A stretch of 64,000 bases of DNA from NCBI RefSeq assembly GCF_014274685.1, contig NZ_CP060393.1, forward strand, positions 4,027,501-4,091,500, given 5' to 3'. Positions 36,822 to 58,671 of the stretch are shown one piece after another. The first letter of the stretch is position 1. Each line of letters opens with the position of its first letter. Position numbers and translations under genes: made by a program. This DNA is from Edaphobacter sp. 4G125 (GTDB taxonomy: Bacteria; Acidobacteriota; Terriglobia; Terriglobales; Acidobacteriaceae). The notes beneath the pieces are model-generated. The model was given only the letters and a program-made list of their open reading frames with translations. It ran no database searches and was not told the origin of the DNA.

Positions 36822-39128
36822 ATGAACGACACTGCAAGAATTTTCCTGTTTGGCCCCTTCAGCTTTGATTTGGCCCAACAGGAGCTGCGCAGGCGTACAC
36901 GGCGCGTGCATCTCTCTGTCTCTCTCCTCAAGCTGCTCACGCTTTTTCTTACACGACACGGTGAACTGATTACACGCGAGGAGATTGCTCTCACACTTTG
37001 GGAGGACAGCAACACCATTGATGTTGTCACAGGGATCAACACGGCTGTGAGGCGGCTAAGAGCACAGCTGGACGACGATCCCGCTACACCCACCTATATT
37101 GAGACCGTGATCGGGCTCGGGTATCGGTTCATCGCGCCCGTGGAGGAGATTGAAGACTCGAGGAATACTGACCACGAACGTCCACCCGTCCAGGAAGTGG
37201 TCACGCTCGAGGAGGCAGATCTTAACACTGCTGCTCTCGTAGAAAGCCCGTCCGAATCAGGGGAGGACACATCGTGGAAAGCTCAACCCCCTTTACAGAC
37301 CGAACGCCATCGTTTCATGTCTCCGAGGATTCTTTTTGGTGTAGCGACTTTATTACTGTTGGCGCTGGGCGCTGCCGCCATGAGACATCGCTCAGCCAGG
37401 CTGGCTGCATCGCCAGGGGGGACATCTCATCTCAGTCCATCTCTGACTCAGATCACCTTCAATGATGAAGAGAACAGGATCACATCGGAAGCCATCTCTC
37501 CCGACGGACAATTAGTAGCCTATAGCGATCGTTATGGTATCTCGGTCCATAATTTGGGCGACGGTACAGATCACCTGCTCACCTCGCCGTCCTCCTTCCA
37601 GGCCAACCGGCTGGCCTGGCATCCCGGTAGAAATTGGTTGCTAGTTAGCGGCAGTAACCTGCTTAGTCACAGAAGTGAGGTCTGGGTTGTTTATTTGCAC
37701 GGAGAGGTACCACACCTGTTAGTCGACGATGCGGGATTGGCAGTTGCTAGCCCAGATGGCAACCACATTGCTTATACACGCGCAGGGAACAGCGAAATAT
37801 GGCTTGCCGATGAAGACGGAGAAAATGCTCATCTGTTAATCCCCAAAAGGAATAGAGACAGATTTACCTGTCTGCTTTGGTCACCTGAAGGGGATCGGTT
37901 GATCGACGACCGAGTAAGTGCAGCCAGTGATCCCTCCACAAATTCAGCCGGCGCCGATCCATCTCCACGATCAACATACGAGTCCGTGGATGTTCGCACT
38001 GGAAAACTGCTGAGCAAGCAGGAAAATATTCAGTTTGATTCTGGATTTCTGCTCAAGGACGGGCGCTTCTTCCACCCGGAAAAAACGGGAGATTTCGATG
38101 GCGCAAAGATCATGATGATCCCCACAGATCGGAGCACAGGGCAATTTCTTTCCCACCCGCAAGCCGTGAGCACCTCTCAGGTGCCAGATGTATGGGGGCC
38201 CCCAGGCGTCCTCTCAGCTTCCTCCAATGGAAATTGGATAGGGACTGTTTTGAGCAGTCGCACGAGCGACGTCTATGTAGCGGAGATTCATTGGCCTGGA
38301 CCCACACTAATAAAAGCGACGCGGCTGACTGATCACTCGAGGAATAACTATCCTCATACATGGACTCCCAATGGCGATGCGGTCTTATTTGATCGGAATG
38401 ATCGCAACGCCGTCATCGGTAAAGAGCGACTGGGAGAAGCCAAGATGGAGGTTGTGGCGCAACTGCCTAATATAGCGGCTATGGCTGAATTCAGCCCAGA
38501 CGGCAAGTGGATCCTCTTCACGGAATTTGCCGGATCGCCGAGTCATGCAGTCGGCATATTCAGTGTCCCTTCGGAAGGCGGAAAACCAACGCAACTCCAT
38601 ACGACGGGCACCATCGAAGAATTCCACTGCCCGACTTCCTCCAAGGGATCTTGTGTGATGCGAGAGACGAACGACAATCAAGAATCTGTGTTCTATGCCC
38701 TTGATCCCGTTCAAGGTATGCAACAGGAAGTTGCCCGCATCCCCTGGGAACCAAACATACTCGGTGATTGGTCCGTCTCTCCGGATGGAGCGATCGTAGC
38801 TATCGCAAATCACGACCCCGAAAATCCAGATATTCAATTAGTTCCTCTTTCACCTCATCGCTCAATACAGCCATCCACGATTCCAGTGCCTGGTTTTGGT
38901 GCCATGCGCGGAGTGACCTGGGCTTCCGATGCAAAGGGGTTCTTTGTGGAAACGAAGACAACGACCAGCTACAACCTTCTATACGTCAATCAAGCTGGAC
39001 ACGTCACGCTCCTGCGCCAAAGTCCTATTGCAATTTGGGGTGTCCCTTCGCGCGATGGCAAAAAGCTGGCCTTCCCCAGCCTGACTGTCACCAGCAATGT
39101 TTGGGCAGGCCGCACATCGCCCCCGTAA
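36822..39128 (+). CDS. CadC-like membrane regulator with WD40/TolB-type propeller
   Basis: A 768-residue protein. A DNA-binding winged helix of the OmpR/PhoB type occupies residues 5-105 (GPFSFDLAQQELRRR..., YIETVIGLGYRFIAPVE). After a polar linker one helix (about 168-186, ILFGVATLLLLALGAAAMRH) crosses the membrane. Residues 200-768 form a periplasmic propeller of WD40/PD40 repeats (ISPDGQLVAYSD, ASPDGNHIAYTR, FSPDGKWILFTE). The layout is that of CadC/ToxR one-component regulators, where a periplasmic sensor controls a membrane-tethered DNA-binding domain. The ligand is unknown. Such genes are numerous in Acidobacteria. Targets may include the divergent peroxiredoxin gene or the sugar genes downstream. 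Confidence 0.88.
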   Translation: MNDTARIFLFGPFSFDLAQQELRRRTRRVHLSVSLLKLLTLFLTRHGELITREEIALTLWEDSNTIDVVTGINTAVRRLRAQLDDDPATPTYIETVIGLGYRFIAPVEEIEDSRNTDHERPPVQEVVTLEEADLNTAALVESPSESGEDTSWKAQPPLQTERHRFMSPRILFGVATLLLLALGAAAMRHRSARLAASPGGTSHLSPSLTQITFNDEENRITSEAISPDGQLVAYSDRYGISVHNLGDGTDHLLTSPSSFQANRLAWHPGRNWLLVSGSNLLSHRSEVWVVYLHGEVPHLLVDDAGLAVASPDGNHIAYTRAGNSEIWLADEDGENAHLLIPKRNRDRFTCLLWSPEGDRLIDDRVSAASDPSTNSAGADPSPRSTYESVDVRTGKLLSKQENIQFDSGFLLKDGRFFHPEKTGDFDGAKIMMIPTDRSTGQFLSHPQAVSTSQVPDVWGPPGVLSASSNGNWIGTVLSSRTSDVYVAEIHWPGPTLIKATRLTDHSRNNYPHTWTPNGDAVLFDRNDRNAVIGKERLGEAKMEVVAQLPNIAAMAEFSPDGKWILFTEFAGSPSHAVGIFSVPSEGGKPTQLHTTGTIEEFHCPTSSKGSCVMRETNDNQESVFYALDPVQGMQQEVARIPWEPNILGDWSVSPDGAIVAIANHDPENPDIQLVPLSPHRSIQPSTIPVPGFGAMRGVTWASDAKGFFVETKTTTSYNLLYVNQAGHVTLLRQSPIAIWGVPSRDGKKLAFPSLTVTSNVWAGRTSPP

Positions 39129-39153: not shown

Positions 39154-40524
39154 TCACTTGATGGTGCCATTCGTCTCGATGATGGCGCTGGCAAGTGTTC
39201 CCCAGTCTTCTCCCGAATCACTAAGCAGCTTGAGCGCGACCCGATGGGCCTCCGAAGTAACGGGCAAGTTCGTATTGAGTTGAACTGGTTGTGCCGGGTC
39301 TACTGAAGCAAGTTCGTTGCGACTGATCTCAGCCCCTCCCGAGTTATAGACAACAGCAACAAGGCGGCCAGGAAAAAATACAGAGAAATCTCCCCGCAGG
39401 GTGATTCCTCCAAGCTGGGATGTCGCAGACAGAGCTGAAGTCACAACGCCTGGATCAGAGACCAGCTTCGGTTCCGATGCGATTGCAATCGGATGCCAAG
39501 TCGTGTCGAAGGCATAGCTTTCGCCTGGGGCAAGCGAGACAATAGGCGAATTAATTTCTGCCTCCATGTAGTAGGGCGTCGTATCCGGCGAGGCTCCCCT
39601 GATAGATGCAATCCCTTTCTTATCGAACTGAACGTGGGGTCCGTTCTTATAGAAAATAACCGTCGTCTTGCCGGGATAATCCGCGGATTTCGTAAAAGAG
39701 AAATGTTCAACCATGCCATACCGGCTGGTCTTGTCGACGATAGTAAGCCAACCCGCAGTGCTATCGAGCCAGACCTCATTGCCAAAGTAAGACCAATGAA
39801 GCCGAAAGAGATCGTCGTTCGTAGAGAAAGCGGGGTCTTCGGCAAGACCATAACGCACATGATAGCCATCGGGAAACGAAGAATTGGCACTGCGTGGTGT
39901 ATAGGCCCAGAAATCGTGATTGAAGTCTTCTGGATGAGCGGGGTCGGCAAGATCATATTGCGAAACAGATTGGATTGACCAGGTAATGGGATGCCGTGTC
40001 GCATTTTCCATCACGGCATGAAAGCGGATCTCTGGCGAATCCGCGCCTAACGTGATGGTGCGAACGATGCGCATACCAGTGATCTTGTCGGGCTGGCCGG
40101 TAAGACGAACTGTACAGCGTTCCCCCTGAGCGATCGTCTCGAAACGATATGGAAGATCATCGATAGCAGTGGACTGGATGACCCAGTGATGCTCATCCTG
40201 GCTGCCCTCGGGCATGGGCCAGACCTTGTCGCCACCATAGTTGATCCAGTCGCCCTTGGCCTCAGCAGGTGAGATGTATTTGCCCCGAAATTGCGGGTTC
40301 GAGAAGAGGTAGGAGTGGCCGTTGAATTCAACCTGCATCAGCCTGCCTCCGAGTTGCGGCACAAAGATCAATGTGACCCAATGATTGGCAACCGTCTGCG
40401 AATCCCATCCAAGATATCTACCGGGCTTGATCGAGCATGAGTTGGATTGAGCAGAAGATGCCAACACTGAAGGCGACAATAGGCCGAAGAGAAGCAAGAC
40501 AAAAACAGGACGAAGAAACTTCAT
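39154..40524 (-). CDS. Secreted DUF4380-type protein
   Basis: A 456-residue exported protein with signal peptide MKFLRPVFVLLLFGLLSPSV. The body resembles the galactose-mutarotase-like beta-sandwich used by aldose epimerases and by DUF4380: LGGRLMQVEFNGHSYLFSNP, WINYGGDKVWPMPEG, and WAGWLTIVDK-type strands. No function is established for this family. The start at 40524 has GGAGGG about 9 bases upstream and gives the signal peptide; the longer frame from 40677 would overlap the TonB-receptor gene. It follows that receptor gene by 82 bases on the same strand, which points to a role in the same carbohydrate pathway. Confidence 0.82.
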   Translation of the reverse strand: MKFLRPVFVLLLFGLLSPSVLASSAQSNSCSIKPGRYLGWDSQTVANHWVTLIFVPQLGGRLMQVEFNGHSYLFSNPQFRGKYISPAEAKGDWINYGGDKVWPMPEGSQDEHHWVIQSTAIDDLPYRFETIAQGERCTVRLTGQPDKITGMRIVRTITLGADSPEIRFHAVMENATRHPITWSIQSVSQYDLADPAHPEDFNHDFWAYTPRSANSSFPDGYHVRYGLAEDPAFSTNDDLFRLHWSYFGNEVWLDSTAGWLTIVDKTSRYGMVEHFSFTKSADYPGKTTVIFYKNGPHVQFDKKGIASIRGASPDTTPYYMEAEINSPIVSLAPGESYAFDTTWHPIAIASEPKLVSDPGVVTSALSATSQLGGITLRGDFSVFFPGRLVAVVYNSGGAEISRNELASVDPAQPVQLNTNLPVTSEAHRVALKLLSDSGEDWGTLASAIIETNGTIK

Positions 40525-40606: not shown

Positions 40607-43600
40607 TTAGAAGTACAGCTTGAGAGCAACCTGCATGATGCGTGGATCGCGAGCGGACGTAACGTAGCCAAAACCATTTATGCCCACGTTGTTCCAATTC
40701 CCGGAAGGCCCATTGAACTGGGCATGGTTAAAGATGTTAAACGCCTCGGCACGGAACTGTAGATAAGTCGATTCAGTGAAATCGAACTTACGTTGCAGCG
40801 CCAGGTCGGTGTTATTAATCCCTGGTCCATGGAAGAAGCGACGCCTGGAGTTTCCGAATTGCCCCAGCGGCTCCTGCGTGAAGAGCGTGGGGTCGAAGTA
40901 CGGTAGACCCTTGCGCGGATCTTTGTTGATGATGAGCTTGCCTGGAGTGTAGTCCGGAAGATCGGCACCCGTCCCGGTCAGGGACTGATCGTCATTTTTC
41001 GAAATGGTAATCGGCAAACCAGTAGCAAAGGTTGTGATGCCCGAGACCGACCATCCCCTGGCAAGGTAATACGCAATGCCTGACTGGCCGGGAGTCAATC
41101 GATCGAACGGAAGCTGCACCGTATAGCTGCCAACAAAGTTGTGAGTTACATCAAAGTTCGACAGACCCCAGCTCAGCGCAGGATTGAGTACATTGGTCTT
41201 ATCCGACTGCGCTGAGGCGTTGTCGAAGGAGCGGGAGAAGGTATAGCCCAACAGGAACTCGTAGCGTTTGCTGGAGTGTTGCAACGATGCCTGCAAAGAG
41301 TTGAAGCTGGAGCTCGACGTGGTGCGCATATAGGGATTCGAGCCGAAGTCCAGACCAAGGATGCGGGTGCCGTTGACGACCGTACCATCAGCCTTGATGT
41401 ACTGCTGGCTCTCATTGCCTGGCCCGCAATCGGTCTGGCCGGGAGCAAGCGCCGCTCCCCGCAATGCAAGGCAAAGTGCCGGATCACCCGGATTGGACTC
41501 TTCCTGTGTAATCAGTTTGCGGCCGACGTTGCCGACGTAATTCAGACTGAGTACAGTGCGGCTGCCGACGCTTCGCTGGACGCCAAGGTAAAAGCTCTGC
41601 ACGTAGGGCAAAACATTGTGGACATCGAAGAGCGCGGATCCGGAGATGGGGACGACCTGATCCCAGTTGAAGGTGGTATCGGGATTATCTTTGGAGACGT
41701 TAGTCGGCGGGAAGGCGAAGGGAAAGCGCTGCCCTTCATTATTGCCCGTTCCACGATCGATGTAGGGCGTCTCCAACATGGGCTGCACGGGGCTGGAGTA
41801 AAACAAACCATACGGAGCATCGCCGACTTCGATAAATCCCGTTGCATCCTGAATATTGGTGTAGAAGAAACCGTAACCGCCACGAATGGTGAAGTTGCCG
41901 GATCCTCCCGTGAGCTTGCCCAGGAAACCATCGCTCGCCGCAGGGGAATAGTTAAAGCCAAAGCGAGGAGCAAAGTTGTTGTAACGGATCGGAGCCAGGG
42001 TACGCGATACTCCAGGATCGCCCGGAACCAGGTAACCCTTGGGAGCCCCGGGAAAGACCACAGACTGTACACCCGGGATCAACGTCTCGAGTTTATTCTG
42101 GGTGTCGTACCAGGGAGTTGAGATCTCATACCGCAGGCCGAAGTTCACGGTGAGGTTCGTGAGGGCCCGCCAGGAATCCTGACCGAACGCACCGAAGTAG
42201 TGACTGCGCGAATCGAGGATCTGCGGACTGGCCTGAATAAAATTATTCGGAGCGCCAATCAGCATGTCCGAAAAGTCGCTTCCCGTCTCTTGTCCATTGA
42301 AACTGAACTGCCCATTCGCGGCGTAGTAGTTGCGTTCGTTAATTTGGTCGTAATGATAGTTGATGCCGTATTTCAGATTGTGGCGACCAATCGTCTGCGC
42401 GTAGGTCTCCAGCACCTGAAACATGTTGTTGTACTGGTTGAGAGTATCGACCGGCGTGCCGAAGTTGTAATTATTCAGTCCGATTGCGGGCACACCTGTA
42501 AGCGCAGGGTTGATGTTGGAGAGCCCACCCGCAGGGCCCCACGGCGTGGTGAAGCCGAGCGAGGCGAGCGAAACACCAGTGCCCTGCACCGGATTTCCCA
42601 GATGATTGATGATGCGCATGTAGGTGAACCGCAGATCGTTGACCGAGGTACCATGCACAGTGGTGGTAAGGCCAAGATTAATCATCTGCGCTCGGCCCTG
42701 ATTGGCTGAGGTAAAGCCAGGGATGTTGACTCCGCTGATATAGGGATCGTTGAGGGAGAACTGATCGATGAAGTAGTAACCAAAGAAGTTGCCGAAGCGC
42801 GTGTTGAGGTCGCCACGAATGCCTCCCTTGTTGTCGGTCAGGTGAGCGGACACCGCAGCGGTCGCAAAGACATCATCCCCTATATTGGCCTGAGGAATGT
42901 ATTGCAGTAGGTTTCCTGCAACAGGCGACCAGGCCGATTTGGGAATGTAGGCATTGGGAAAGACGCAGGTGGCCGAAGTACAGCCTGGGACATAATAGGG
43001 TTCATTTGCCGTGACCGGATAGCCAAGGCGGTTGGAAAGCACCTGGGCCCAGCCTGCACCGTAAACAACACCGGCGGTCAGCGGAGATTTGTCGCTTGTA
43101 TCAAAATAACCATTACGATTGTCCGCCGAGGGCACCTGAAATCTCTGCGTGGCACCCTTGATCTGCCGAGTCCCCTGGTAATCGGCGAAGAAAAAGGCCT
43201 TGTCCTTGCGGATAGGACCGCCGATGGTGCCCCCAAAGATGTTCTGGATAAAGACGCCTCGCTGGTTAGCGGGGGCAAAGTAGTTCGCTGAATCGAGATC
43301 GGTATTGCGCAGAAAATCGAACGCATTGCCATGGAAACGGTTCGTACCCGATTTGGTTACAACATTGATCACGCCGCCGCTGAAGTTTCCATACTCTGCA
43401 TCGAAGTTGTTGGTCAGGATACGGAACTCGGCGATGGAGTCGAGGTTCGGGATAATCGCCGCGCCATTGTAGACTCCCTCGTTGGCGTCGGCACCGTTGA
43501 TCATGTAGCCGTTAGAGGCCTCGCGGCCACCGTTGATCGACACGTTGCCTGGATCGAGATCACCAGATACAGTGCGTCCCGCCTCCGAGGTCCCTTTATA

Positions 43601-44095
43601 GGGAGAGACACCGGGTTGCAATGAAAGCAGATCGGTGAAGGAGCGGCCGTTGAGCGGAACAGAGGTCATCTTGGTACTCTCAATGACCTGGCCGAGTTGT
43701 GTGGTCTGCGTCTCCACTTGCAACTCGTCTGCAGTTACTTCCTGGATCTGATTTGTGGTGCCGACCTGAACGGTGATGTTGATATTGATGGCGGAATTGG
43801 CGTCGACCTTGATGTTTTTACTCTCGAACGTGCGGAATCCTGCCGGTGCAGTGGAAAGCGTGTAGACACCGACATTGAGTGCGGGAAAGGTGTAATAACC
43901 GGTCCCGTTGGTGGTGACGACTTGCGTAATGCCAGTCGCCTCATTGCGTACCGTCACTTGCGCCCCGGGGATTGCGGCACCGCTCGGGTCGAGGACGTTG
44001 CCCGAGATAGATCCCGTAATCGCTGCATATAGCGGCAAAGACCCCAGAACAAGGACAAGACACGCCAGCATAATCCTGCGAATACACAGAAGCAT
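40607..44095 (-). CDS. TonB-dependent outer-membrane receptor with carboxypeptidase-regulatory domain
   Basis: A 1162-residue Oar-like receptor. A signal peptide (about 1-24) precedes a CarboxypepD_reg domain (25-110, GSISGNVLDPSGAAIPGAQV) and then the TonB plug (about 115-240; IESTKMTSVPLNGRSFTDLL, GVINVVTKSGTNRFHG). The rest is a 22-strand barrel ending in an aromatic C-terminal residue (ALKLYF), the outer-membrane insertion signal. Acidobacteria use such receptors for import of oligosaccharides or metal chelates. AAGGAG lies 6 bases before the ATG. Its place between the PQQ dehydrogenase operon and the DUF4380 gene suggests it imports the substrate of that pathway. Confidence 0.93.
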   Translation of the reverse strand: MLLCIRRIMLACLVLVLGSLPLYAAITGSISGNVLDPSGAAIPGAQVTVRNEATGITQVVTTNGTGYYTFPALNVGVYTLSTAPAGFRTFESKNIKVDANSAININITVQVGTTNQIQEVTADELQVETQTTQLGQVIESTKMTSVPLNGRSFTDLLSLQPGVSPYKGTSEAGRTVSGDLDPGNVSINGGREASNGYMINGADANEGVYNGAAIIPNLDSIAEFRILTNNFDAEYGNFSGGVINVVTKSGTNRFHGNAFDFLRNTDLDSANYFAPANQRGVFIQNIFGGTIGGPIRKDKAFFFADYQGTRQIKGATQRFQVPSADNRNGYFDTSDKSPLTAGVVYGAGWAQVLSNRLGYPVTANEPYYVPGCTSATCVFPNAYIPKSAWSPVAGNLLQYIPQANIGDDVFATAAVSAHLTDNKGGIRGDLNTRFGNFFGYYFIDQFSLNDPYISGVNIPGFTSANQGRAQMINLGLTTTVHGTSVNDLRFTYMRIINHLGNPVQGTGVSLASLGFTTPWGPAGGLSNINPALTGVPAIGLNNYNFGTPVDTLNQYNNMFQVLETYAQTIGRHNLKYGINYHYDQINERNYYAANGQFSFNGQETGSDFSDMLIGAPNNFIQASPQILDSRSHYFGAFGQDSWRALTNLTVNFGLRYEISTPWYDTQNKLETLIPGVQSVVFPGAPKGYLVPGDPGVSRTLAPIRYNNFAPRFGFNYSPAASDGFLGKLTGGSGNFTIRGGYGFFYTNIQDATGFIEVGDAPYGLFYSSPVQPMLETPYIDRGTGNNEGQRFPFAFPPTNVSKDNPDTTFNWDQVVPISGSALFDVHNVLPYVQSFYLGVQRSVGSRTVLSLNYVGNVGRKLITQEESNPGDPALCLALRGAALAPGQTDCGPGNESQQYIKADGTVVNGTRILGLDFGSNPYMRTTSSSSFNSLQASLQHSSKRYEFLLGYTFSRSFDNASAQSDKTNVLNPALSWGLSNFDVTHNFVGSYTVQLPFDRLTPGQSGIAYYLARGWSVSGITTFATGLPITISKNDDQSLTGTGADLPDYTPGKLIINKDPRKGLPYFDPTLFTQEPLGQFGNSRRRFFHGPGINNTDLALQRKFDFTESTYLQFRAEAFNIFNHAQFNGPSGNWNNVGINGFGYVTSARDPRIMQVALKLYF

Positions 44096-44301: not shown

Positions 44302-46008
44302 CTATCTGGACGTACCTCCCGAAACGTCGTGTCTACCCTGTGCCTGCTGGGGCAGTGAAAAGCTGAAGAGGTCGTTTCCAGCAGCGACGGCAAAATACTG
44401 GACACCATCGACTGCGTAGCTCATCGGCGAAGCATGAACATGTTGACCGAGATTAAAGTGCCAGAGCGATTTCCCTGTAGTTCCATCCACTACTTCGAAC
44501 TCCTGGGCATCGTTGCCGAAGATCACCAGCCCCGTGGCAGTGCTCATCGCTCCTGCGAAGGAGTGGGTATCCCCGGTCTGTGCATAGCGCCATGCGAACT
44601 TATCCGTCACAGGGTCATATGCGTTGAGGTACTTTTTGTTGCGCTCTGTGGGTAAATGGGCGGCTCCGGTCGAGTAGTAAGCCTTTCCTTCGGCAAAGTC
44701 CTCGGTCTTGGCTCGAAAGACGCTGCAATCATCAAGCGACAGGAAGTAGAACATCCGGGTGTGTTCATTCCAGGTAGGCGAGTACCAGTTCGTAGCGCCG
44801 GCATAGCTGGGACACATGCGCGTTCCTTCCGCGCTGGGCACTAAGTCCGTCCGAATGGGCCGCCCCTTCGCATCGATTCCCTTCGCCCAATTGAGCGTCT
44901 GCGCAAACTGAGTCGCCTGAAGAAACTCTCCCGATTCGCGGTCGAGCACATAGATAAAACCATTCCGGTTGGCCTGGAGGAGCAACTTACGCGGCTTGCC
45001 TTTGAAGGCCATATCGATGAGCACAGGTGTTTCGGTAGCGTCGTAGTCGTTGAGATCGTGAGGCGTGAACTGAAAGTGCCATTTGAGCTTCCCCGTATCG
45101 GGGTCGAGCGCGAGCACACAGTTGGTGTAGAGATTGTCGCCTTCGCGCACCGTACCATCGAAGTCAGGCGAAGGATTGCCCGTAGTCCAATAGATCGTAT
45201 TGAGAGCAGGATCATAGGCGCCAGGCATCCACGTTGTGCCACCGCCATGTTTGTAGATGTCTCCCTTGGGCCAGGTCTCGGAGCCGGGCTCGCCGGGAGC
45301 AGGAATCGTCCAGAAGCGCCAAGCCTCTTTGCCAGTTTTTGCATCGAAAGCCACGACAAAGCCGCGCACACCATCATCGCCGCCAGAGGTCCCAACGAGT
45401 ACCTTGTCTTTGACAACAAGAGGGGCACTGGTCGCACCGTAGTTGCGATTGTCCTGAGCGTAAGCGACATCCCAAAGCAGGTTCCCGGATCGTGCATCAA
45501 GGCAGAGCAGATGCGCATTATCCGTCTGCATATAGAGCCGGGTACCAAGTATGGCCACGCCGCGGTTGATATGACCTGAAGCATCATCGATAAGCCCCTG
45601 AGTTACGGGGCGAGTATGGTGCCAGAGTACTTTGCCGGTCGCAGCATCCAGCGCGTAGGCATCGTTGGATCCGGTCATATACATAACGCCATCGACCACA
45701 AGAGGCGTTGCCTCGAGAATGCCTGCATTACGACTATGAAAGACCCACCGGGCCTGCAGCTGCGCGACATTCGACCGGTTGATCTGCGTGAGACTGGTGT
45801 AGCGTCGGCCCGTATAGTCGCCATTATAGGAAGGCCAGTTGTCGGCAAGCGCGGTATTGCGAAGCATCTCGTGCGTTACGAGATCGTCCGCCCCGGTCGA
45901 TACCTGGTGAGGCGCCTTCACCTGTGCTGCCGCGCAAGTAGCGAGAGCAAGGCCCACAACCAGGCTACGGGCAGTATGGCCAACGATGCGGCGAGGGTAA
46001 GCTCTCAC
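44302..46008 (-). CDS. PQQ-dependent dehydrogenase (acidobacterial ADH-like)
   Basis: A 568-residue periplasmic quinoprotein with a signal peptide (about 1-28) and an eight-bladed propeller (blades ending in Trp, e.g. LDAATGKVLWH). It oxidises alcohols or aldose sugars using PQQ. Cofactor-site landmarks are GNPSPDFDG with Asn278, FTPHDLNDYDATE with Asp321 as the expected catalytic base, and GTSGGDDGVRGFV with Asp211 where methanol dehydrogenases have Glu. No vicinal Cys-Cys disulfide is seen; GH at about 145-146 stands there. No cytochrome domain is fused. The start codon is GTG, overlapping the SMP-30 stop (GTGA). Upstream genes encode the probable electron acceptor and the lactonase. Confidence 0.88.
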   Translation of the reverse strand: MRAYPRRIVGHTARSLVVGLALATCAAAQVKAPHQVSTGADDLVTHEMLRNTALADNWPSYNGDYTGRRYTSLTQINRSNVAQLQARWVFHSRNAGILEATPLVVDGVMYMTGSNDAYALDAATGKVLWHHTRPVTQGLIDDASGHINRGVAILGTRLYMQTDNAHLLCLDARSGNLLWDVAYAQDNRNYGATSAPLVVKDKVLVGTSGGDDGVRGFVVAFDAKTGKEAWRFWTIPAPGEPGSETWPKGDIYKHGGGTTWMPGAYDPALNTIYWTTGNPSPDFDGTVREGDNLYTNCVLALDPDTGKLKWHFQFTPHDLNDYDATETPVLIDMAFKGKPRKLLLQANRNGFIYVLDRESGEFLQATQFAQTLNWAKGIDAKGRPIRTDLVPSAEGTRMCPSYAGATNWYSPTWNEHTRMFYFLSLDDCSVFRAKTEDFAEGKAYYSTGAAHLPTERNKKYLNAYDPVTDKFAWRYAQTGDTHSFAGAMSTATGLVIFGNDAQEFEVVDGTTGKSLWHFNLGQHVHASPMSYAVDGVQYFAVAAGNDLFSFSLPQQAQGRHDVSGGTSR

Positions 46009-47000
46009 TTCTTCTCCTTCGGTTCAGCGTAGGGTAGGTAGCCGGCAACCTTCATCTTGAGCGTGTAGACCTTAGGCCCAGCGGTAATCCACATGGTGGA
46101 ACGGTCTTCGCCGCCCCAGGTGAGATTGGCCGCGGTCGTGGGAAGCAGAATGCGCCCCAGCCGCTTTCCTTCCGGGCTCCATACCCAGATTCCTCCCGGT
46201 CCGGTAACGTAGAGATTGCCTTTACGGTCGAACTTCATCCCATCGGGAACGCCAGGCGCGTCTGTACTCTTCTCTTCAGCGAAGAGAACGCCATCAGAGA
46301 CCGTGCCCTCTTTATGGAAGGTGTAGCGCCATATCTCTTTGCGTTCAGTATCGTCGACGAAGAGATATCGGCCGTCAGGCGAAAACGCGAGCCCGTTGGG
46401 CTGAGACAGGTCCCGCACCAACAGTGTGAGCGTTCCATCCGAGGCAAGACGATAGACACCTTTCCAGGGTGTCTCCTGTTTTTCTCCCTTAACCAGATCC
46501 AGCGTGGGATCGGTAAAGTAGAGCGCGCCATCGGGGCCGAGCGTAACGTCGTTCGGGCTGTTGAGACGCATCCCCTGGTAACGGTCGGCGATCACGGTGT
46601 AGCTCTTCTCATCCGGCGAAAGCCGGATCAAGGAACGCAACACACTGGCCGTCACGATAACCCGCCGTTGCTGGTCAAGCGTATTGCCGTCCGGGTCGCC
46701 GAGTTTCATGATGGTCTCGTGATGGCCATCGGGGTAAAGCCGACAAAGCTCGTTGGTGACTTCGTCGCTGACAATCAGAGTTCCGCCCGGTTCCCATATA
46801 GGACCTTCGGTGAATCCGAAGCCGGAGCCCACGGTCACCAACTGCGCGTCCTTTGCAACCAGCGACCAGAACTCTGGCGAATCCGCCTCCAGCGAGAAAC
46901 TGCGTTGCCTCCGTTGCGCAGCAAGATTCGCGGCCGCCAGGCACGATAGGGCTACGGCAAGGGAAACGACACGCCAGCGGTGCATCTTCGAGCGAAGCAT
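46005..47000 (-). CDS. SMP-30/gluconolactonase-family protein, exported
   Basis: A 331-residue protein with signal peptide and a six-bladed SMP-30 propeller. Family motifs include GFTEGPIWEPGGTLIVSDEV (metal-binding Glu), LNSPNDVTLGPDGALYFTDP (Asn and Asp ligands) and FSPDGRYLFVDDTERKEIW. Such enzymes open sugar lactones, the product of PQQ sugar oxidation, which fits the neighbours. The ATG at 47000 is preferred; an in-frame TTG at 47006 overlapping the cytochrome stop would add two residues. The gene is packed between the cytochrome c and PQQ dehydrogenase genes with a 2-base gap and a 4-base overlap. Confidence 0.9.
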   Translation of the reverse strand: MLRSKMHRWRVVSLAVALSCLAAANLAAQRRQRSFSLEADSPEFWSLVAKDAQLVTVGSGFGFTEGPIWEPGGTLIVSDEVTNELCRLYPDGHHETIMKLGDPDGNTLDQQRRVIVTASVLRSLIRLSPDEKSYTVIADRYQGMRLNSPNDVTLGPDGALYFTDPTLDLVKGEKQETPWKGVYRLASDGTLTLLVRDLSQPNGLAFSPDGRYLFVDDTERKEIWRYTFHKEGTVSDGVLFAEEKSTDAPGVPDGMKFDRKGNLYVTGPGGIWVWSPEGKRLGRILLPTTAANLTWGGEDRSTMWITAGPKVYTLKMKVAGYLPYAEPKEKK

Positions 47001-47002
47001 GG

Positions 47003-47806
47003 TCAATCTGCCTTTGATCGTCTGCGACGGGATGAGGGATCGATCGGGTCAGCGGAACGCACAAGAAACGTGACGATATCGTCGATCTGAGCCGACGAGA
47101 GACGGCTACCGTAATCGGCGGGCATCAGCGAGTGTCCAGTATGCGTGAGCTTTTTGAGGCTGGACTTTGTAAAACGACGATAGCGTCCATTCTGTAGCTG
47201 TACAACGATGTTGAAGTTGTCCTCGGAGCGCAGAACGCCGCGAAGCGATTCGCCACGCAAGGTGGTGAATTCGACGACCTCGGAACCGGGTGTCACAAAG
47301 GTTTCGGGACCAACGATTGCGGCTCGAATACGCTCAGGTGCAATGCCGCTCCCATAATCAGAGAGATCACTGGCAAGAAAACCGCCCTCGCCATGCATCA
47401 TATGGCATGAGGAACAATCTGCTTTCCCAAAGAAAAGCGCGCGACCCGAGGCCTGGTCACCGGTAAGCTTTACGTCGGTTGTTGTCTTCCCCTGCAACTG
47501 ACGAAGGAAGGCCACAACATCGCGAATCCCATCATCGCCAAGAAAACCAAAGGCCGGCATACCCGAACCGGTAATCCCATTACGGATAAAACCAGCGAGA
47601 TCTTTGTCTGTCAGCGAGACGATATTGCGCGCCGTCGCAATATTCGGAGCGCGTTCGCCGCCACGGCCATCCGAACCGTGACATCCAGCACAGTTGGTTG
47701 AAAAGGTCTTGCTCCCCGCCGCCACATCGACCTGAGCACACAAATAAGGTGTGGGGAGCAGAGCAATAGCGAATACAGCTAGAGCGTGACGGAACCTGTT
47801 TTTCAT
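47003..47806 (-). CDS. Diheme c-type cytochrome, exported
   Basis: A 267-residue protein with signal peptide and two c-heme motifs: CAGCH at 39-43 and CSSCH at 131-135. Candidate axial Met residues lie in GSGMPAFG (about 83) and LMPADYG near the C-terminus. The length and two-domain layout match membrane-loose diheme cytochromes that accept electrons from PQQ dehydrogenases. It is the first gene of the cytochrome-SMP-30-PQQ operon, reading cytochrome, lactonase, dehydrogenase. A basic C-terminal tail (RRRRSK) is unusual. Confidence 0.92.
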   Translation of the reverse strand: MKNRFRHALAVFAIALLPTPYLCAQVDVAAGSKTFSTNCAGCHGSDGRGGERAPNIATARNIVSLTDKDLAGFIRNGITGSGMPAFGFLGDDGIRDVVAFLRQLQGKTTTDVKLTGDQASGRALFFGKADCSSCHMMHGEGGFLASDLSDYGSGIAPERIRAAIVGPETFVTPGSEVVEFTTLRGESLRGVLRSEDNFNIVVQLQNGRYRRFTKSSLKKLTHTGHSLMPADYGSRLSSAQIDDIVTFLVRSADPIDPSSRRRRSKAD

Positions 47807-48131: not shown

Positions 48132-48695
48132 TTATTGAAAAGTCATGCGATTGCGACGGGCATCGACATCACTCGCATTCAGGTCAGGAACGTGCTTGAC
48201 GTCATCGGACGTCTTGAAAGCTCCATTCTTTTCCCTGTAAGCCACGATACTCTCAGCCTGCTTAGTCGTGAAACCCAACTGCGACTCCAGTTCACTGGCC
48301 GTCGCCTTGTTCATATTGATCTTCTTCGTGACCGGTGGAAAGTTCTTCACTAGATAGTCGAGGATCTCGGTAAACTCTTCATCCGAAGCTGAAGCGCCCA
48401 TCCCTGCCATCTTGGTGAGAGTATCTTCCCATCCATCGCGGGTCTGTCCATTAGCGACCACGTTGGTCGGGGAATGACATTTGCTGCAAACACGAACAAG
48501 GGTATCCTTCCCCGGCCCATCCGGTAACACCGCATACTGGGAGTTGCTCTTCTGTTGCGCCGCAGCCGGAGGAGCAGCCTGCTGCAAAGTGGGAGCAGCC
48601 AATGCCGCCGAGGACGCAATGGCGATTCCCGCCCCAAGAAAAAGAACCCCACACCAAACCGCCCGTAAAGCTCCTGACCTCTTCTTCTTCATCAT
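48132..48695 (-). CDS. Exported cytochrome c fused to a helix-hairpin-helix domain
   Basis: A 187-residue protein. A signal peptide ends near residue 33 and an Ala/Pro/Gln-rich spacer follows. A single c-heme motif CSKCH at 70-74 lies in a small cytochrome domain (about 60-122). A ComEA-like helix-hairpin-helix domain (about 126-187) carries INMNKATASELESQLGF and AESIVAYREKNGAFKTSDDV. ComEA-type domains bind DNA non-specifically in the periplasm during uptake or contact other proteins. Joining one to a heme domain is uncommon and its purpose is unknown. It has its own hairpin terminator and is divergent from the LacI gene. Confidence 0.87.
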   Translation of the reverse strand: MMKKKRSGALRAVWCGVLFLGAGIAIASSAALAAPTLQQAAPPAAAQQKSNSQYAVLPDGPGKDTLVRVCSKCHSPTNVVANGQTRDGWEDTLTKMAGMGASASDEEFTEILDYLVKNFPPVTKKINMNKATASELESQLGFTTKQAESIVAYREKNGAFKTSDDVKHVPDLNASDVDARRNRMTFQ

Positions 48696-51712: not shown

Positions 51713-52659
51713 AGACCTACACAAAAGAGATCGGCGTTTTCCTAACCATCGTGGCGCTCATGCTTCTGCTGCTTTGGCGAGCGAGCGGCTTCTTCGCCTA
51801 TGGAAACCTGATCGACCTGTTCCTGACCAATATGCCGGTCATGATCATCGCTGTCGGCATGACATTGATTATTTTGACGGCGCAGATCGACATCTCTATA
51901 GGTTCAATCTTCGCGGTTTGCAGTGTCGTCATGGGCCTCTGCGCCAGTAAAGGAATCCCCGTCTTCATCAGCGCGTTGATTGCCTGCGCCGCGGGTACAC
52001 TCTGTGGCGCTCTCAACGGAGCTCTTGTTGCCTATCTCCGTATCCCTTCCATCGTGACGACGCTGGCGACCATGGTTGCACTGCGCGATGGGCTGCGCTG
52101 GTATACCCAAGGCGCATGGGTTCAGGGACTCAACTCCGGATTTCAATGGTTTGGTCTAACGACAAAGAGCTATACGGCAATTACGTTGCTCATCGTTCTT
52201 CTGATTGTTGCGGCAACTGCATTCGCCCTTTCGCACCTGCGATATGGAAGGGCCATCATCGCCACCGGTTCGCATGAAGCTGCTGCACACCAAGTGGGGA
52301 TCAACACACAGCGAATTGTCTTCAGCGTTTTTGCATTCACAGGAGCTTTGACCGGACTAGCGGCCATCCTGAATACAGTTCGTTTCAACCAGGTTCCAAG
52401 CAACGCGGGGCTGGGACTGGAATTAAAGGTGATCGCCGCGGTCGCTGTAGGAGGAGCCTCGATCACGGGAGGATATGCCACGATTACAGGAACCGTTCTC
52501 GGCGTTGTTTTACTCGGCTGCATCGGCTCTGCGCTTACGTTTCTGGGAATCAACGCATACTGGGAAAAAGCCATCCAGGGAGCCATCATTCTGATCGCCG
52601 TCGCCACCGATACCATTCAGCTCCATCGCAGGAAAAATGTTTCCATCGTTACGGCCTAA
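51709..52659 (+). CDS. Sugar ABC transporter permease (RbsC type)
   Basis: A 316-residue inner-membrane permease with about nine hydrophobic segments and the CUT2 signature region AVAVGGASITGGYATITGTVLGVVLLG (shortened: GGASITGGYATITGT) near residues 248-262, which contacts the ATPase. It also has the paired motifs ILTAQIDISIGSIFAV and YLRIPSIVTTLATM. It is the first of two permeases in this importer and overlaps the following gene by 23 bases. Confidence 0.92.
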   Translation: MKTYTKEIGVFLTIVALMLLLLWRASGFFAYGNLIDLFLTNMPVMIIAVGMTLIILTAQIDISIGSIFAVCSVVMGLCASKGIPVFISALIACAAGTLCGALNGALVAYLRIPSIVTTLATMVALRDGLRWYTQGAWVQGLNSGFQWFGLTTKSYTAITLLIVLLIVAATAFALSHLRYGRAIIATGSHEAAAHQVGINTQRIVFSVFAFTGALTGLAAILNTVRFNQVPSNAGLGLELKVIAAVAVGGASITGGYATITGTVLGVVLLGCIGSALTFLGINAYWEKAIQGAIILIAVATDTIQLHRRKNVSIVTA

Positions 52660-54631
52660 ATTAAATCTCACGGGCATCCAGTGGATTCTCGCGGCGGCTC
52701 TGCTGGTCGAGGGCGCGATCTTTGCCTTCGCATCGCCGGCATTTTTTACATGGACCAACCTGCTGGAAATTCTGCGCTTCAGCGTAGAACTAGGACTGCT
52801 TGCCGTCGCGCTCACACCGATCCTGATCACCGGAGGGATCGATCTCTCGGTCGGATCGACGCTTGGGCTTGTCGCTGTCATCTTTGGAATGGCATGGCAT
52901 AACTTCCATCTCTCGATTCCCGCCGCAATGAGTCTCGCTTTATTGGTGGCATGTGTCTGCGGTTTTCTAAATGCAGTGCTCATTGCACGTCTGCGTCTTC
53001 CCTCACTGATCATCACTCTCGGCACCTACTCTCTTTATCGAGGAGTCGCGGAAGGAATCACCCACGCAGCGCAAAGCTACACAGGATACCCATCGACCTT
53101 CCTCCTGTTGGGTCAGGGTTATCTCTGGGGAATCCCCATCCAGGTCTTTCTTTTTGCGTTCTTCATCCTTCTGTATGCGGTCCTGCTTCATCGCTCCATC
53201 GTCGGGCGCTCTCTCTATGCCATCGGGCTGAACATGGAAGGAGCGCAATATGCCGGAATCCCCGTTCGCCGATATTTGATGCTTATCTACTTCCTCTCGG
53301 GTTTAGTCGCAGGCATCGCAGCCATCATCAATGTTGCCCATCTCGGGCTGGCGAAATCGGACCTCGGTACCGGCTTTGAGCTTCAGGCCATCACAGCCAT
53401 CGTGATTGGTGGAACCTCTGTCTTTGGCGGGCGCGGAGACATTCTTGGAACTGTCCTGGGGCTTCTATTTCTCTGTGTCCTTCAGAATGGTTTGCACCTG
53501 ATGGCCCTGCCTTCCGAGGTCACAGGAGTTCTGACCGGCGTTCTCCTGCTGCTCGTGGTCTCCGCCGATCTGCTGCGCGAGAAGATGGGACTGCGTGGAA
53601 GCGATGATCGCTCTGCGAAGAAGAACTGGATTCCTTTTGCGAGCGCCGGTGGTGTTCTCGCTGTTTTCCTGTTTGCCAGCGTTCTCTTTGTCATCCGAAA
53701 GACGCACGGGAATGCAGAGAGCTCTCATCGTCGCCCGGTGATCGCAGTCATGCCCAAGGCCAAAGGCGATCCCTACTTCATCAGCGCGCGTGCGGGGGCG
53801 GAGCAGGCAGCTAAAGAGCTTGGCGTCGATCTGATCTGGGACGGCCCCACAAGCCTCGACGCCTCCATGCAGAACGAGCTCGTCGAAAGCTGGATCACCC
53901 GTGGAGTGGATGCCATCGTCGTAGCGGTCGAGAACAAGGGAAGTATCTCGACGGTTCTGCGAAAAGCCCGTCAGCATCACATCGCGGTGTTAACCTGGGA
54001 CGCCGATGCCGAGGAAAACGCGCGCGACTACTTCCTCAACCAAGCTACTCCCGAAGCAATCGCCAATACTTTGACCGATGAAGCGGCGCGACTGCTTCCC
54101 AATGGCGGACAGTTCGCCATCATTACAGGTGCCCTCAGCGCAGAGAACCAAAACCAATGGATCGCCTTCATCAAGGACAGAGTCGCCACAAAGCATCCTC
54201 AATTAAAGCTGGCAACGGTTCTGCCCAGCGATGACGATCGCGACAAGGCGTTTTCTCAGACGCAGAACATCATGAAGGTCTATCCCGAAGTCAAACTCGT
54301 TATGGCCATCTCAGCGCCTGCTGTTCCCGGAGCGGCCGAAGCGGTGCAACAGTCCAGACGCCCCGTAGATGTCATCGGATTATCGCTGCCAACGATTTGT
54401 AAGCCATATATCCATGACGGCGTGGTCCAGACCATCGTTCTGTGGAACACGCGCGACCTTGGCTACCTTACCGTCTATGCCGGATGGCTTGATTCCCAAA
54501 AGAAGATTCCACCATCAGCGACTTCGATCACTGCTGGCCGACTCGGATCTCTTGAGGTGTGGGGCAGCGAGATTGTCCTGGGAGCTCCAATGATCATCGA
54601 CAAGTCGAACATCGATCATCTCGACTTCTAG
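52637..54631 (+). CDS. Fused sugar ABC permease and substrate-binding protein
   Basis: A 664-residue fusion. Residues 1-320 are a second RbsC-type permease (LITGGIDLSVGSTLGL, GGTSVFGGRGDILGTVLGL). Residues about 329-352 are one further hydrophobic helix (WIPFASAGGVLAVFLFASVL). Residues about 366-664 are a complete periplasmic sugar-binding domain of the LsrB/RhaS type (AVMPKAKGDPYF, VLTWDADAE, NQNQWIAFIK, DKSNIDHLDF). The extra helix would carry the chain back across the membrane so the binding domain faces the periplasm, as required. The length is about twice that of a normal permease and no separate binding-protein gene is present. It starts inside the previous gene with GGAAAA in front. 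AI-2 is unlikely to be the ligand because pocket residues differ. Confidence 0.92.
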   Translation: MFPSLRPKLNLTGIQWILAAALLVEGAIFAFASPAFFTWTNLLEILRFSVELGLLAVALTPILITGGIDLSVGSTLGLVAVIFGMAWHNFHLSIPAAMSLALLVACVCGFLNAVLIARLRLPSLIITLGTYSLYRGVAEGITHAAQSYTGYPSTFLLLGQGYLWGIPIQVFLFAFFILLYAVLLHRSIVGRSLYAIGLNMEGAQYAGIPVRRYLMLIYFLSGLVAGIAAIINVAHLGLAKSDLGTGFELQAITAIVIGGTSVFGGRGDILGTVLGLLFLCVLQNGLHLMALPSEVTGVLTGVLLLLVVSADLLREKMGLRGSDDRSAKKNWIPFASAGGVLAVFLFASVLFVIRKTHGNAESSHRRPVIAVMPKAKGDPYFISARAGAEQAAKELGVDLIWDGPTSLDASMQNELVESWITRGVDAIVVAVENKGSISTVLRKARQHHIAVLTWDADAEENARDYFLNQATPEAIANTLTDEAARLLPNGGQFAIITGALSAENQNQWIAFIKDRVATKHPQLKLATVLPSDDDRDKAFSQTQNIMKVYPEVKLVMAISAPAVPGAAEAVQQSRRPVDVIGLSLPTICKPYIHDGVVQTIVLWNTRDLGYLTVYAGWLDSQKKIPPSATSITAGRLGSLEVWGSEIVLGAPMIIDKSNIDHLDF

Positions 54632-55560: not shown

Positions 55561-56613
55561 CTATTGAACAGCAGCAATTGCTTCTTGCACCTGCTTTGCG
55601 TCTGCAAGAACGCTGATCTTCAACCTGAACTCGCGACGTTCGCCGGGTTTGAGAGTTTCCAGCATGCCTTGTTCCCGCTCGTAAGCGCGGCCTCGCGTTC
55701 TGCAGTTTCCCGGCTCAAGCCCAAGAACAAAGTGATTCGCCGAGGTCATCTTCCACTGATTGAACCAGGGCAAAGCGCTGGAGTCATAACTCAGAGCCAT
55801 GCCATAGTCCTGCGTATCCTGATTGCTCACCAGAACCACTGTCACTTCGCCCTTGCCCTTCATCCGATGGTAGTAAACTCTCTCCTCTAGTCCCGGATGA
55901 GGCTTATCAAAGGTATTCCATCGTTCAAGATCACTGGCAGCCCAATCATTAACGGGATCGATGTTTTCTGACGGCGTATAAATCCTGGACCGCGGAGTCA
56001 GCAAAGGAAATCCAAAATTGCAGTGGTAAAGAATCATCAGGGGAACTTCGCGAGTCCACTGATTCTCTACGACATCGTGAATCTCCAGAGATGAGCTCTT
56101 CAACGAGCTTGTGATCGTACGTTCCAATACAAGATTGGGACCATGTACGGCGCTCTCTCTCAGTCGCCCGGTAATCTGAAAAAGGCAGTCATCCTTTTCC
56201 CATCTTTCAGACCAGGAGACGTTCTCCGCCGGCGTATTTGAGATGGAACCATGCAGCCCGAAACTCTCGCCTGCATCCTGCGAAGGGGCGCCAACCGTAG
56301 AGAGCCCGCACGTCGTCAGCAAGCCACCAAAGAAGCCTTTCAACCATTCCGTTCCGCGGCTGGAAGAGTAGGCAGGATGGACCATTCCGGTAGGAGAGTG
56401 CCAGCATAGGGATTGCCCCTGAAAACTGGCTTCGAAGATGTCCATTCCGCGATCTGGCACGACCCAGAACTCAAACCCGCTCGCCGTTCGAACTCGCAGC
56501 GTGCTGGTCCCTTTCGCTTTGCCATCGGCATGAACAAAAGGAGAGATCCCTCCCACCTGAGAAAGCCTTCCAATCTGGCTTAGCAGTTCCTCGCGGGAGC
56601 GCCATGACGACAT
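55561..56613 (-). CDS. DUF4432 aldose-1-epimerase-like protein
   Basis: A 350-residue protein of the galactose-mutarotase superfamily. It shows GGISPFVHADGKAKGT, WVVPDRGMDIFEASFQGQSL, a GMVHPAY region, and GLEPGNCRTRGR near residue 308, the DUF4432 hallmark. It has no signal peptide, so it is cytoplasmic. Epimerase activity on an aldose or a keto-aldose is plausible. AGGAG lies 10 bases before the ATG. It is the last gene of the seven-gene minus-strand operon and starts 19 bases after the DUF1080 gene. Confidence 0.87.
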   Translation of the reverse strand: MSSWRSREELLSQIGRLSQVGGISPFVHADGKAKGTSTLRVRTASGFEFWVVPDRGMDIFEASFQGQSLCWHSPTGMVHPAYSSSRGTEWLKGFFGGLLTTCGLSTVGAPSQDAGESFGLHGSISNTPAENVSWSERWEKDDCLFQITGRLRESAVHGPNLVLERTITSSLKSSSLEIHDVVENQWTREVPLMILYHCNFGFPLLTPRSRIYTPSENIDPVNDWAASDLERWNTFDKPHPGLEERVYYHRMKGKGEVTVVLVSNQDTQDYGMALSYDSSALPWFNQWKMTSANHFVLGLEPGNCRTRGRAYEREQGMLETLKPGERREFRLKISVLADAKQVQEAIAAVQ

Positions 56614-56632
56614 CTTTTTCTTCTCCTGGTTG

Positions 56633-57505
56633 CTACGGAAGCTTCTTCAACCATACATTGCGATGCGAGATTTTTACATCTCCCGGCCCTTCGATCTCAA
56701 AGGCGAGAACTCCCTTCGCCCGGAAGAACTTCGGATCGTTGTCCACAAGAATCGCCATCACATGCCCATTCACAATATGGGTCAGGGTATGACCATCCGC
56801 AATAATCTCAAACTGGTTCCACTCTCCCGGCTTGATGAAGGACTTAAGCTCGTCGGAGCTTCCCAGCGTGGCAAGCAGACGAGGGTTCTTGCCGGACTGT
56901 GTCTCCACGACCTGTCCGCGCCATGCAATGATGCCGCGCGGGCTGTCCTGCTCGTAGAGCTGCCCCGTATAGCGATTGTTGTAATCGAAGTCGCCCTGAT
57001 ATCCGGTCAGGTTCCACTTTGCATGCTTCTGTGCCAGCTCCTGCCCCTGCTTGAATCGCTGCTTCTGTTCCTCGGTCATCTGAGCCAGACGCTCCGGTGG
57101 AATCTCGCGATGTATCGGCGGCGCGATCGCGCTGCGATACTGGATTCCTCCGTTAGCGCCCGTCCCCTCGAGCTTGATCTCGAGCTTAAGCATGAAGTTT
57201 CCGGGTTCTCCTCCGCGCCAGATGATATTCGTTGTCCCCGAGGGATGTTCGTTGCTCGATACACCGACGATCGATCCATCTTCCACATGCCATACGTCGG
57301 AGGGCCCATCCCATCCGTTCAGTGTCTTGCCATCAAAGATCTGTGTCCAACCGGTGTTGTCGTTAAAGTCGATCGGATCGGGCTGGATAAAGCGCCCTGG
57401 TGCGGGAGCCTTTGCAGGCTGTTGAGCTGCCAGAGGAGCCGCGCATAGCGCACTTAGAGTCATGACGGCCGGCACAAACAACTGCATCCTCGAAAACCTC
57501 AACAT
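56633..57505 (-). CDS. Exported DUF1080 protein (3-keto-glycoside hydrolase family)
   Basis: A 290-residue periplasmic protein with signal peptide (MLRFSRMQLFVPAVMTLSAL). A DUF1080 jelly-roll domain (about 50-290) contains GWTQIFDGKTLNGWDG, VWHVEDGSIVGVSS, GGEPGNFMLKLEIKLEG and NGGIQYRS. DUF1080 enzymes have been shown in Bacteroides to cleave glycosides oxidised at C3. The ATG at 57505 has AAGGAG close upstream and begins the signal peptide. Its neighbour is a Gfo/Idh/MocA enzyme, the type that would make or reduce the 3-keto group, so glycoside oxidation and cleavage is the best inference. Confidence 0.9.
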   Translation of the reverse strand: MLRFSRMQLFVPAVMTLSALCAAPLAAQQPAKAPAPGRFIQPDPIDFNDNTGWTQIFDGKTLNGWDGPSDVWHVEDGSIVGVSSNEHPSGTTNIIWRGGEPGNFMLKLEIKLEGTGANGGIQYRSAIAPPIHREIPPERLAQMTEEQKQRFKQGQELAQKHAKWNLTGYQGDFDYNNRYTGQLYEQDSPRGIIAWRGQVVETQSGKNPRLLATLGSSDELKSFIKPGEWNQFEIIADGHTLTHIVNGHVMAILVDNDPKFFRAKGVLAFEIEGPGDVKISHRNVWLKKLP

Positions 57506-57522
57506 CGTTCTCTCCTTCTCTC

Positions 57523-58668: not shown

Positions 58669-58671
58669 CTT

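Follow-up and report, generated by a model that had tools for sequence, protein, structure and literature searches.

The available part of PMC11845868 lists Glu, Asn, Asp and Asp as the metal ligands of tabulated dehydrogenases that use pyrroloquinoline quinone (PQQ), and according to it the rare-earth enzymes of the XoxF type are further marked by a glycine, Gly171, and by Thr259 rather than a proline. The same part of that source already notes a DYD motif without the Cys-Cys pair in unstudied quinoproteins. A recent survey, PMC11996626, assumes in its accessible text that an aspartate two residues after the catalytic one (the D-x-D motif) directly signals the binding of rare earths. Here we describe a PQQ-type propeller dehydrogenase encoded in a 64,000-nucleotide stretch of the Edaphobacter sp. 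4G125 genome (contig NZ_CP060393.1, positions 4,027,501 to 4,091,500; hereafter the window, to which all positions below refer unless another contig is named). Its metal site combines D-x-D and the glycine with an aspartate in place of the glutamate ligand. On the sequences compared, the existence of an acidobacterial subfamily with such a D/N/D/D site, linked to sugar-acid-type genes, appears more secure than the proposal that it uses rare earths.

The gene occupies positions 44302–46008 of the minus strand and encodes 568 amino acids from a GTG start. This start is favored because the GTG overlaps the stop codon of the neighboring lactonase gene by four bases (GTGA) and AAGGAG lies immediately upstream. 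The N-terminus resembles a signal peptide, as judged by eye. Family profiles and the predicted fold place the product among the PQQ dehydrogenases: it scored 305.9 bits with PF01011 in a profile search, passed TIGR03075 (PQQ-dependent dehydrogenase, methanol/ethanol family) barely, with 480.3 bits against a curated cut-off of 480.05, and has 1kv9 as its closest sequence in the PDB (329 bits).

Translated on the minus strand, positions 44980–45060 read HDLNDYDATETPVLIDMAFKGKPRKLL. They include the D-Y-D motif (45040–45048), in which Asp321 (45046–45048) stands at the catalytic position and Asp323 (45040–45042) at +2. Both aspartates are kept in all of the 79 closest relatives that were retained from 239 found (56–81% identity to the window protein), so the motif does not owe its presence to chance. 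The same is true of Gly210 and Asp211 (45376–45381, minus strand), of Asn278 at the asparagine ligand position (45175–45177, minus), of Trp260 (45229–45231, minus) and of Thr193 and Arg149. The patterns with which relatives were scanned contained none of Gly210, Asp211, Asn278, Asp321 and Asp323. Arg348 (44965–44967, minus), which we take to be the active-site Arg/Lys position, lay within one of the patterns and is Arg in 77 and Lys in two relatives; Asn407 is kept in 78 of the 79. Trp260 presumably stands where MxaF has its PQQ-stacking tryptophan. Position 99, which we equate with Glu55 of methanol dehydrogenase, is Glu in the window protein and 72 relatives and Gln in the other seven.

When aligned without gaps to an annotated XoxF5 (VLVGTSGGDDGVRGF against VIVGISGGEFGVRGA), the window protein has Asp211 at the usual glutamate ligand position, and the Cys-Cys pair of the same XoxF5 is missing from the window protein (GLIDDASGHINRG against NVIPIMCCDTVNRG). 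A sequence-only reading of the window had proposed each of these features, namely Asp321 and Asp323 in a D-x-D arrangement, Asp211 for Glu and the lack of the disulfide; all of them hold when residues are numbered from the GTG. The invariance of Asp211, Asn278, Asp321 and Asp323 thus describes a D/N/D/D site, as opposed to the usual E/N/D/D, and from their position and invariance we infer that these four residues hold the metal.

The sequence-only reading did not remark on the glycine that precedes the ligand. In PDB alignments, 1kv9, 1kb0, 1yiq, 4tqo and 1g72, which we take to be calcium enzymes, show Ala-Glu at the ligand position, and their +2 residue is Thr or Ala, whereas 6oc5, 6dam, 4mae and 6zcv/6zcw have Gly-Glu and a +2 Asp; the window protein has Gly-Asp and a +2 Asp. 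The rare-earth ions of the latter four come from the table in the available part of PMC11845868 or from entry names, and that table gives calcium for other MxaF structures. This nine-chain comparison excluded the sorbose/DON-type chains 22vi, 4cvb, 7wmd and 9m2c, in which the +2 residue is Glu and no Gly/Ala-Glu pair could be aligned. Within it, Gly210 points, as a second rare-earth-type marker, in the same direction as Asp323. At the place of the XoxF marker Thr259 the window protein has Pro281 (TGNPSPDFD), as do PedH and MxaF; since PedH also has Pro there, this residue does not exclude the use of rare earths.

The diagnostic value of D-x-D was examined in a wider alignment of 62 rows. These were the window protein and 11 further quinoproteins from its genome, 29 loci found by searching 61 genomes, 15 relatives out of the 79, and six references. 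The motif is present in 61 of these rows whatever else has changed, the remaining one, L043, being incomplete there. It occurs in E. coli Gcd (HHDLWDMD) and is retained in a TIGR04528-like clade of 16 rows in which other cofactor positions have changed: position 99 is mostly Lys and otherwise Ala, Ser or Asp, and Gly210 is found in none. The available text of PMC11996626 likewise describes D-x-D in m-GDH, which can complex Ca, Mg, Zn and Sr and for which its authors predict facultative use of rare earths. Because the motif is shared by Gcd, the TIGR04528-like rows and m-GDH, it cannot carry a rare-earth claim by itself in this lineage. The five TIGR04528-type paralogs of the same genome (L001–L005) have Lys, Ala or Ser at position 99 and no Gly210, and keep Asn278, Asp321, Asp323, Arg348 and Trp260.

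A quick midpoint-rooted tree of 61 rows (L043 left out; PedH, the quinohemoprotein dehydrogenases and XoxF3 not included), in which the deeper placements are unsure because of long branches, places the window protein within a clade with Asp at position 211. Its sister rows are L007, L029, L031 and L034, followed by the TIGR04528-like rows. The rows for XoxF5, Azospirillum and Methylocystis group in a separate, starred clade that does not contain the window protein, and the XoxF rows join the window side earlier than Gcd does. The five rows L028, L030, L033, L035 and L070, in which position 211 is Glu and the Cys-Cys pair is present, branch outside, so the tree fits a Glu-to-Asp change and a loss of Cys-Cys inside the Acidobacteria. 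There are exceptions at position 211 in both directions, with one case of Glu inside, in L031, and with Asp outside in L032, a row that carries the Cys-Cys pair as well as Ala210; given these, the Glu-to-Asp change may have happened more than once.

The AlphaFold model of the dehydrogenase (mean predicted local distance difference test score (pLDDT) 78.8, predicted template modeling score (pTM) 0.81), built from an alignment of 51 of the 79 relatives, matches PedH 6zcw with a Z score of 43.8 (root-mean-square deviation (rmsd) 2.2, 498 residues aligned), 1yiq with 42.5 (rmsd 2.4, 501), 1kv9 with 42.4 (rmsd 2.5, 498) and XoxF 6dam with 42.1 (rmsd 2.3, 494). Rare-earth and calcium enzymes are about equally near, and the fold therefore does not discriminate between the metals.

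The genome, a single contig of 4.25 Mb that is 99.44% complete, contains 12 strong quinoprotein matches and a weaker one at 54.9 bits. None of the 12 resembles XoxF by ligand motif or tree: all lack the Gly-Glu ligand and none groups with the XoxF rows of the quick tree, which did not include XoxF3, and XoxF-based methylotrophy was rejected on these grounds. XoxF3 has been described in Acidobacteria, according to the available part of PMC10875860. The sequence-only reading had suggested a search for lanM, and this drew a blank: a DNA pattern for the DPDxDG loop, run over the genome without a positive control, gave two lone matches against one for a control pattern and no LanM-like cluster of motifs. 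Altogether, the LanM-pattern and EF-hand searches led to no recognized gene for handling rare earths in the genome, lut not having been searched for. The EF-hand search did yield a candidate periplasmic metal-binding protein at G000:C1:1145602-1146315 on the minus strand (loci L160 and L169), which has eight EF-hand-like loops and a signal-peptide-like start and lies near a gene that by eye resembles apbE. It was rejected as a LanM, as three of its loops read DTNHDG and none has Pro at the second place.

Rare-earth use of the dehydrogenase, which had been put forward as a possibility from D-x-D, is allowed by these comparisons but not demonstrated. A lanthanide-dependent dehydrogenase whose site would be a D/N/D/D version of that in XoxF and PedH strikes us as close to an even call, though just short of one. 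Asp323 and Gly210 match the rare-earth enzymes in 79 of 79 relatives, three carboxylates and an Asn together with Gly210 resemble rare-earth sites, and PedH is the top structural match, although calcium enzymes follow within about 1.5 Z; the Glu, Asn, Asp, Asp ligands and the Gly171 feature of XoxF in the available part of PMC11845868 point the same way. Yet the tabulated Glu ligand has become Asp, Thr259 has become Pro, the Cys-Cys pair is gone, the +2 Asp is not diagnostic here, none of the 12 strong quinoprotein matches resembles XoxF, and the DPDxDG-type pattern gave two lone matches in the genome against one for its control. The same facts can be read as those of an enzyme for calcium or another divalent ion, in which the +2 Asp would be an old feature retained for structural or charge reasons, and Asp211, being shorter, would form a calcium site with Asp323, as in Gcd-type glucose dehydrogenases. 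We consider this plausible, if something less than an even call: D-x-D persists in 61 of 62 rows, E. coli Gcd among them, no rare-earth-handling gene was recognized, and m-GDH has the motif and can complex divalent ions according to the available part of PMC11996626, whose authors, however, predict facultative rare-earth use for it. Two further observations resist the divalent reading, in that the rare-earth chains of the nine-chain comparison are 4/4 Gly with a +2 Asp and the other five chains 5/5 Ala without one, and that the XoxF rows join the window side of the midpoint-rooted tree before Gcd.

The gene neighborhood bears on the substrate. In operon order, the dehydrogenase is preceded by a c-type cytochrome with two CxxCH motifs (47003–47806, minus strand), its probable electron acceptor, and by a protein of the SMP-30/gluconolactonase family (46005–47006, minus) with matches to 3e5z and 3dr2; cytochrome and lactonase genes overlap by four bases, as do lactonase and dehydrogenase genes. 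Downstream follow a large outer-membrane β-barrel (CarboxypepD_reg, OMP_b-brl_4; 40607–44095, minus), possibly a transporter, and a DUF4380-like protein (39154–40524, minus), whose open reading frame (ORF) runs from 40677 and whose probable start is an internal ATG at 40522–40524. A promoter and terminator scan gave three promoter-like signals, against 5.9 expected in shuffles, and 16 terminator-like ones, against 10.1. A search of PDB sequences with the DUF4380-like protein returned nothing useful (best E 1.4). Its model (pLDDT 86.8), from an alignment of 25 of its 31 relatives, has a galactose-mutarotase fold over about residues 26–350 and matches 3ty1 (Z 24.1, rmsd 3.9, 287 aligned) and 3mwx (Z 23.6, rmsd 3.1, 260 aligned).

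Neighbor clusters were counted among the 79 loci, with one representative per cluster named by profile. The cytochrome cluster occurs at 57 loci, a DgaE-like pyridoxal phosphate (PLP) enzyme at 43, the lactonase at 35, DUF4380 at 31, RidA at 26, the barrel at 25, an RraA-like protein at 22, MFS at 20, triple RidA at 18, a cupin at 17 and IclR at 11. At 61 of the 79 at least one gene for a lactonase, DgaE-like, DUF4380, RidA, triple-RidA or RraA protein lies within 4 kb of the dehydrogenase, and at four a CxxCH-bearing part is in frame with it, though one of these four, L100, seems to be on the contig that also carries L056. As a control (E limit 1e-15), ten stretches of 19 kb were taken around the genome's remaining quinoproteins; they contained neither a lactonase (0/10) nor a DUF4380 gene (0/10), which marks the lactonase and mutarotase-fold genes as specific companions. 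In some relatives, the DgaE-like and RidA neighbors would be in keeping with an amino-sugar acid; four DgaE-like matches below cut-off lie elsewhere in the genome. A sugar ABC transporter was dropped as a part of the system, LacI, RbsA and RbsC being unmatched near the dehydrogenase at 79 of 79 loci.

On balance, these data lead us to favor a periplasmic, PQQ-dependent, cytochrome c-linked sugar dehydrogenase. Given the two specific companions, it would most likely oxidize an aldose at C1 to its lactone, from which a sugar acid would then be made. The following model can be proposed. The outer-membrane barrel may, on slender grounds, import the sugar, and the mutarotase-fold protein, going by its predicted fold, may supply the correct anomer. 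The dehydrogenase would oxidize this sugar with PQQ and the metal at Asp211, Asn278, Asp321 and Asp323, and pass the electrons to the two-heme-motif cytochrome encoded by the first gene of the operon, as the natural fusions suggest. The SMP-30 protein, by its family, would then open the lactone to the sugar acid. PQQ is probably taken from neighboring organisms, as the genome has neither pqqC nor pqqE over cut-off and PQQ would therefore have to be scavenged, by a route that we infer to be other than PqqU.

The sugar dehydrogenase model has a number of observations to contend with. Besides the two missing pqq genes, no full-length PqqU was found; among the 18 candidates scored out of 35, E. 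coli PqqU matched only over its residues 14–194, at 33% identity. The available part of PMC12124388 finds PqqU among Acidobacteria only in the Vicinamibacteria and suggests that the others make PQQ or rely on diffusion. The mutarotase-type fold is found in YidC and glycosidase domains as well and does not establish a function for the modeled DUF4380-like protein. No sugar-acid-type gene lies within 4 kb at 18 of the 79 loci, and no cytochrome lies within 4 kb or is fused at 24, several of these loci being on short contigs. The 79 are the best of 239 rather than independent genomes, some assemblies giving several loci. The cluster in the window itself has no gene of the DgaE-like, RidA or RraA type, and the protein representing the DgaE-like cluster reached 161 bits where its family cut-off is 385.3. 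Cytochromes (3/10) and barrels (7/10) turned up in the control stretches, so neither is specific. The ratios of non-synonymous to synonymous substitution (dN/dS) among orthologs are low where defined, 0.036–0.212, and 0.058 between G010 and G033, two genomes without the pqq pathway; this counts in favor of the model, but the ratios are rough, as dS was under 1 in only one of 45 pairs. Among NCBIfam models, the dehydrogenase scores highest with TIGR04528 (acido-empty-quinoprotein group A), although its 544 bits stay below the cut-off of 650.

The last point, together with the lack of pqqC and pqqE, would suit an "empty quinoprotein" whose propeller no longer binds PQQ and acts as a binding or scaffold protein. 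We hold this to be very unlikely: the score falls short of 650 bits, Glu99 and Gly210 are retained, unlike in the 16 TIGR04528-like rows, and the other examined positions are invariant or nearly so in the 79 relatives. The distribution of orthologs at 64% identity or more speaks in the same sense. pqqC passes its cut-off in 13 of 61 genomes and pqqE in exactly those 13; orthologs occur in pathway-bearing genomes (G012, G024, G028 and G030) as well as in pathway-less ones (G000, G005, G010, G033 and G035), of which G033 is a single contig and G035 only 84% complete. An alcohol or polyol as substrate, which would leave the lactonase and the mutarotase-fold protein to act on some other compound in the locus, is an unlikely reading of another kind. 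TIGR03075 is a methanol/ethanol family and the closest solved chains are alcohol dehydrogenases, but the lactonase gene overlaps the dehydrogenase gene, and both the sugar-acid-type neighbors at 61 of 79 loci and the control stretches, with lactonase and DUF4380 in 0/10 each, speak for a sugar. Extending the sugar dehydrogenase reading to the whole clade, so that the D/N/D/D acidobacterial quinoproteins would be rare-earth-dependent aldose or amino-sugar dehydrogenases that feed a periplasmic lactonase/sugar-acid pathway in bacteria with borrowed PQQ, gives a combined proposal that we regard as doubtful.

Several other features of the window and of the related loci deserve mention. A small protein encoded at 48132–48695 (minus strand) has a CxxCH heme motif and a ComEA-like helix-hairpin-helix, and its homologs are found close to two of the genome's further quinoproteins (L059 and L060). 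Consecutive genes for DUF4432, a 3-keto-disaccharide hydrolase, a levoglucosan-dehydrogenase-like Gfo/Idh protein and a xylose-isomerase-like protein at 55561–59736 (minus) form a possible 3-keto-sugar cluster. In a single 664-amino-acid ORF at 52637–54631 (plus), a sugar ABC permease is combined with a substrate-binding domain of the rhamnose type, and at 36822–39128 (plus) a winged-helix (Trans_reg_C) regulator is fused to a PD40/WD40-type propeller. Among the relatives, L117 (62% identity) sits on a contig labeled Betaproteobacteria with acidobacterial-like neighbors, which suggests misbinning or transfer.

In the literature collection searched, there was no paper on the family names TIGR04528, acido_non_PQQ or "empty quinoprotein", and a search for Acidobacteria, PQQ and lanthanides found no study of this quinoprotein clade among the matches listed; one for a module that combines PQQ with a lactonase and a mutarotase listed two papers. 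The term PQQ is absent from the main text of PMC5900883, a comparison of 24 Acidobacteria genomes, and the Glu-to-Asp variant of the metal site is not described in the available parts of the literature found. As D-x-D occurs in 61 of 62 rows regardless of other changes to the site, acidobacterial rare-earth enzymes may be fewer than counts of this motif suggest. Should the D/N/D/D site indeed bind rare earths, the uses of these metals by soil bacteria would include the oxidation of sugars, and the class of rare-earth enzymes would reach beyond methanol and ethanol dehydrogenases to a Glu-to-Asp variant of the site. The genus itself offers a natural comparison, with orthologs in genomes that have PQQ synthesis and in genomes that do not.

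The window protein can be set beside its closest known systems. With E. coli Gcd it shares D-x-D, as in HHDLWDMD, and differs in that Gcd has Lys at the Arg348 position and lies on a distant branch. The TIGR04528 group A clade neighbors the window side of the tree, and five paralogs of the genome exceed the cut-off of that model, whereas the window protein stays below it and retains Glu99 and Gly-Asp at 210–211. The quinohemoprotein alcohol dehydrogenases 1kv9, 1yiq and 1kb0 have the same fold (Z 42.0–42.5) but differ in that their +2 residue is Thr, the ligand position reads Ala-Glu and the Cys-Cys pair is present, and they carry a fused cytochrome, which in the window is a separate gene of the operon. 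The XoxF methanol dehydrogenases (4mae, 6oc5 and 6dam) share D-x-D and the glycine before the ligand; unlike the window protein, which falls outside the XoxF5-type clade, they have the Glu ligand, Thr259 and Cys-Cys. PedH of Pseudomonas putida (6zcw, 6zcv) resembles the window protein in fold, D-x-D, the glycine before the ligand, the Asn ligand, the active-site Arg and the Pro at the Thr259 place, and departs from it, at 35% identity over the structural alignment, in having the Glu ligand and Cys-Cys where the window protein has Asp and no such pair.

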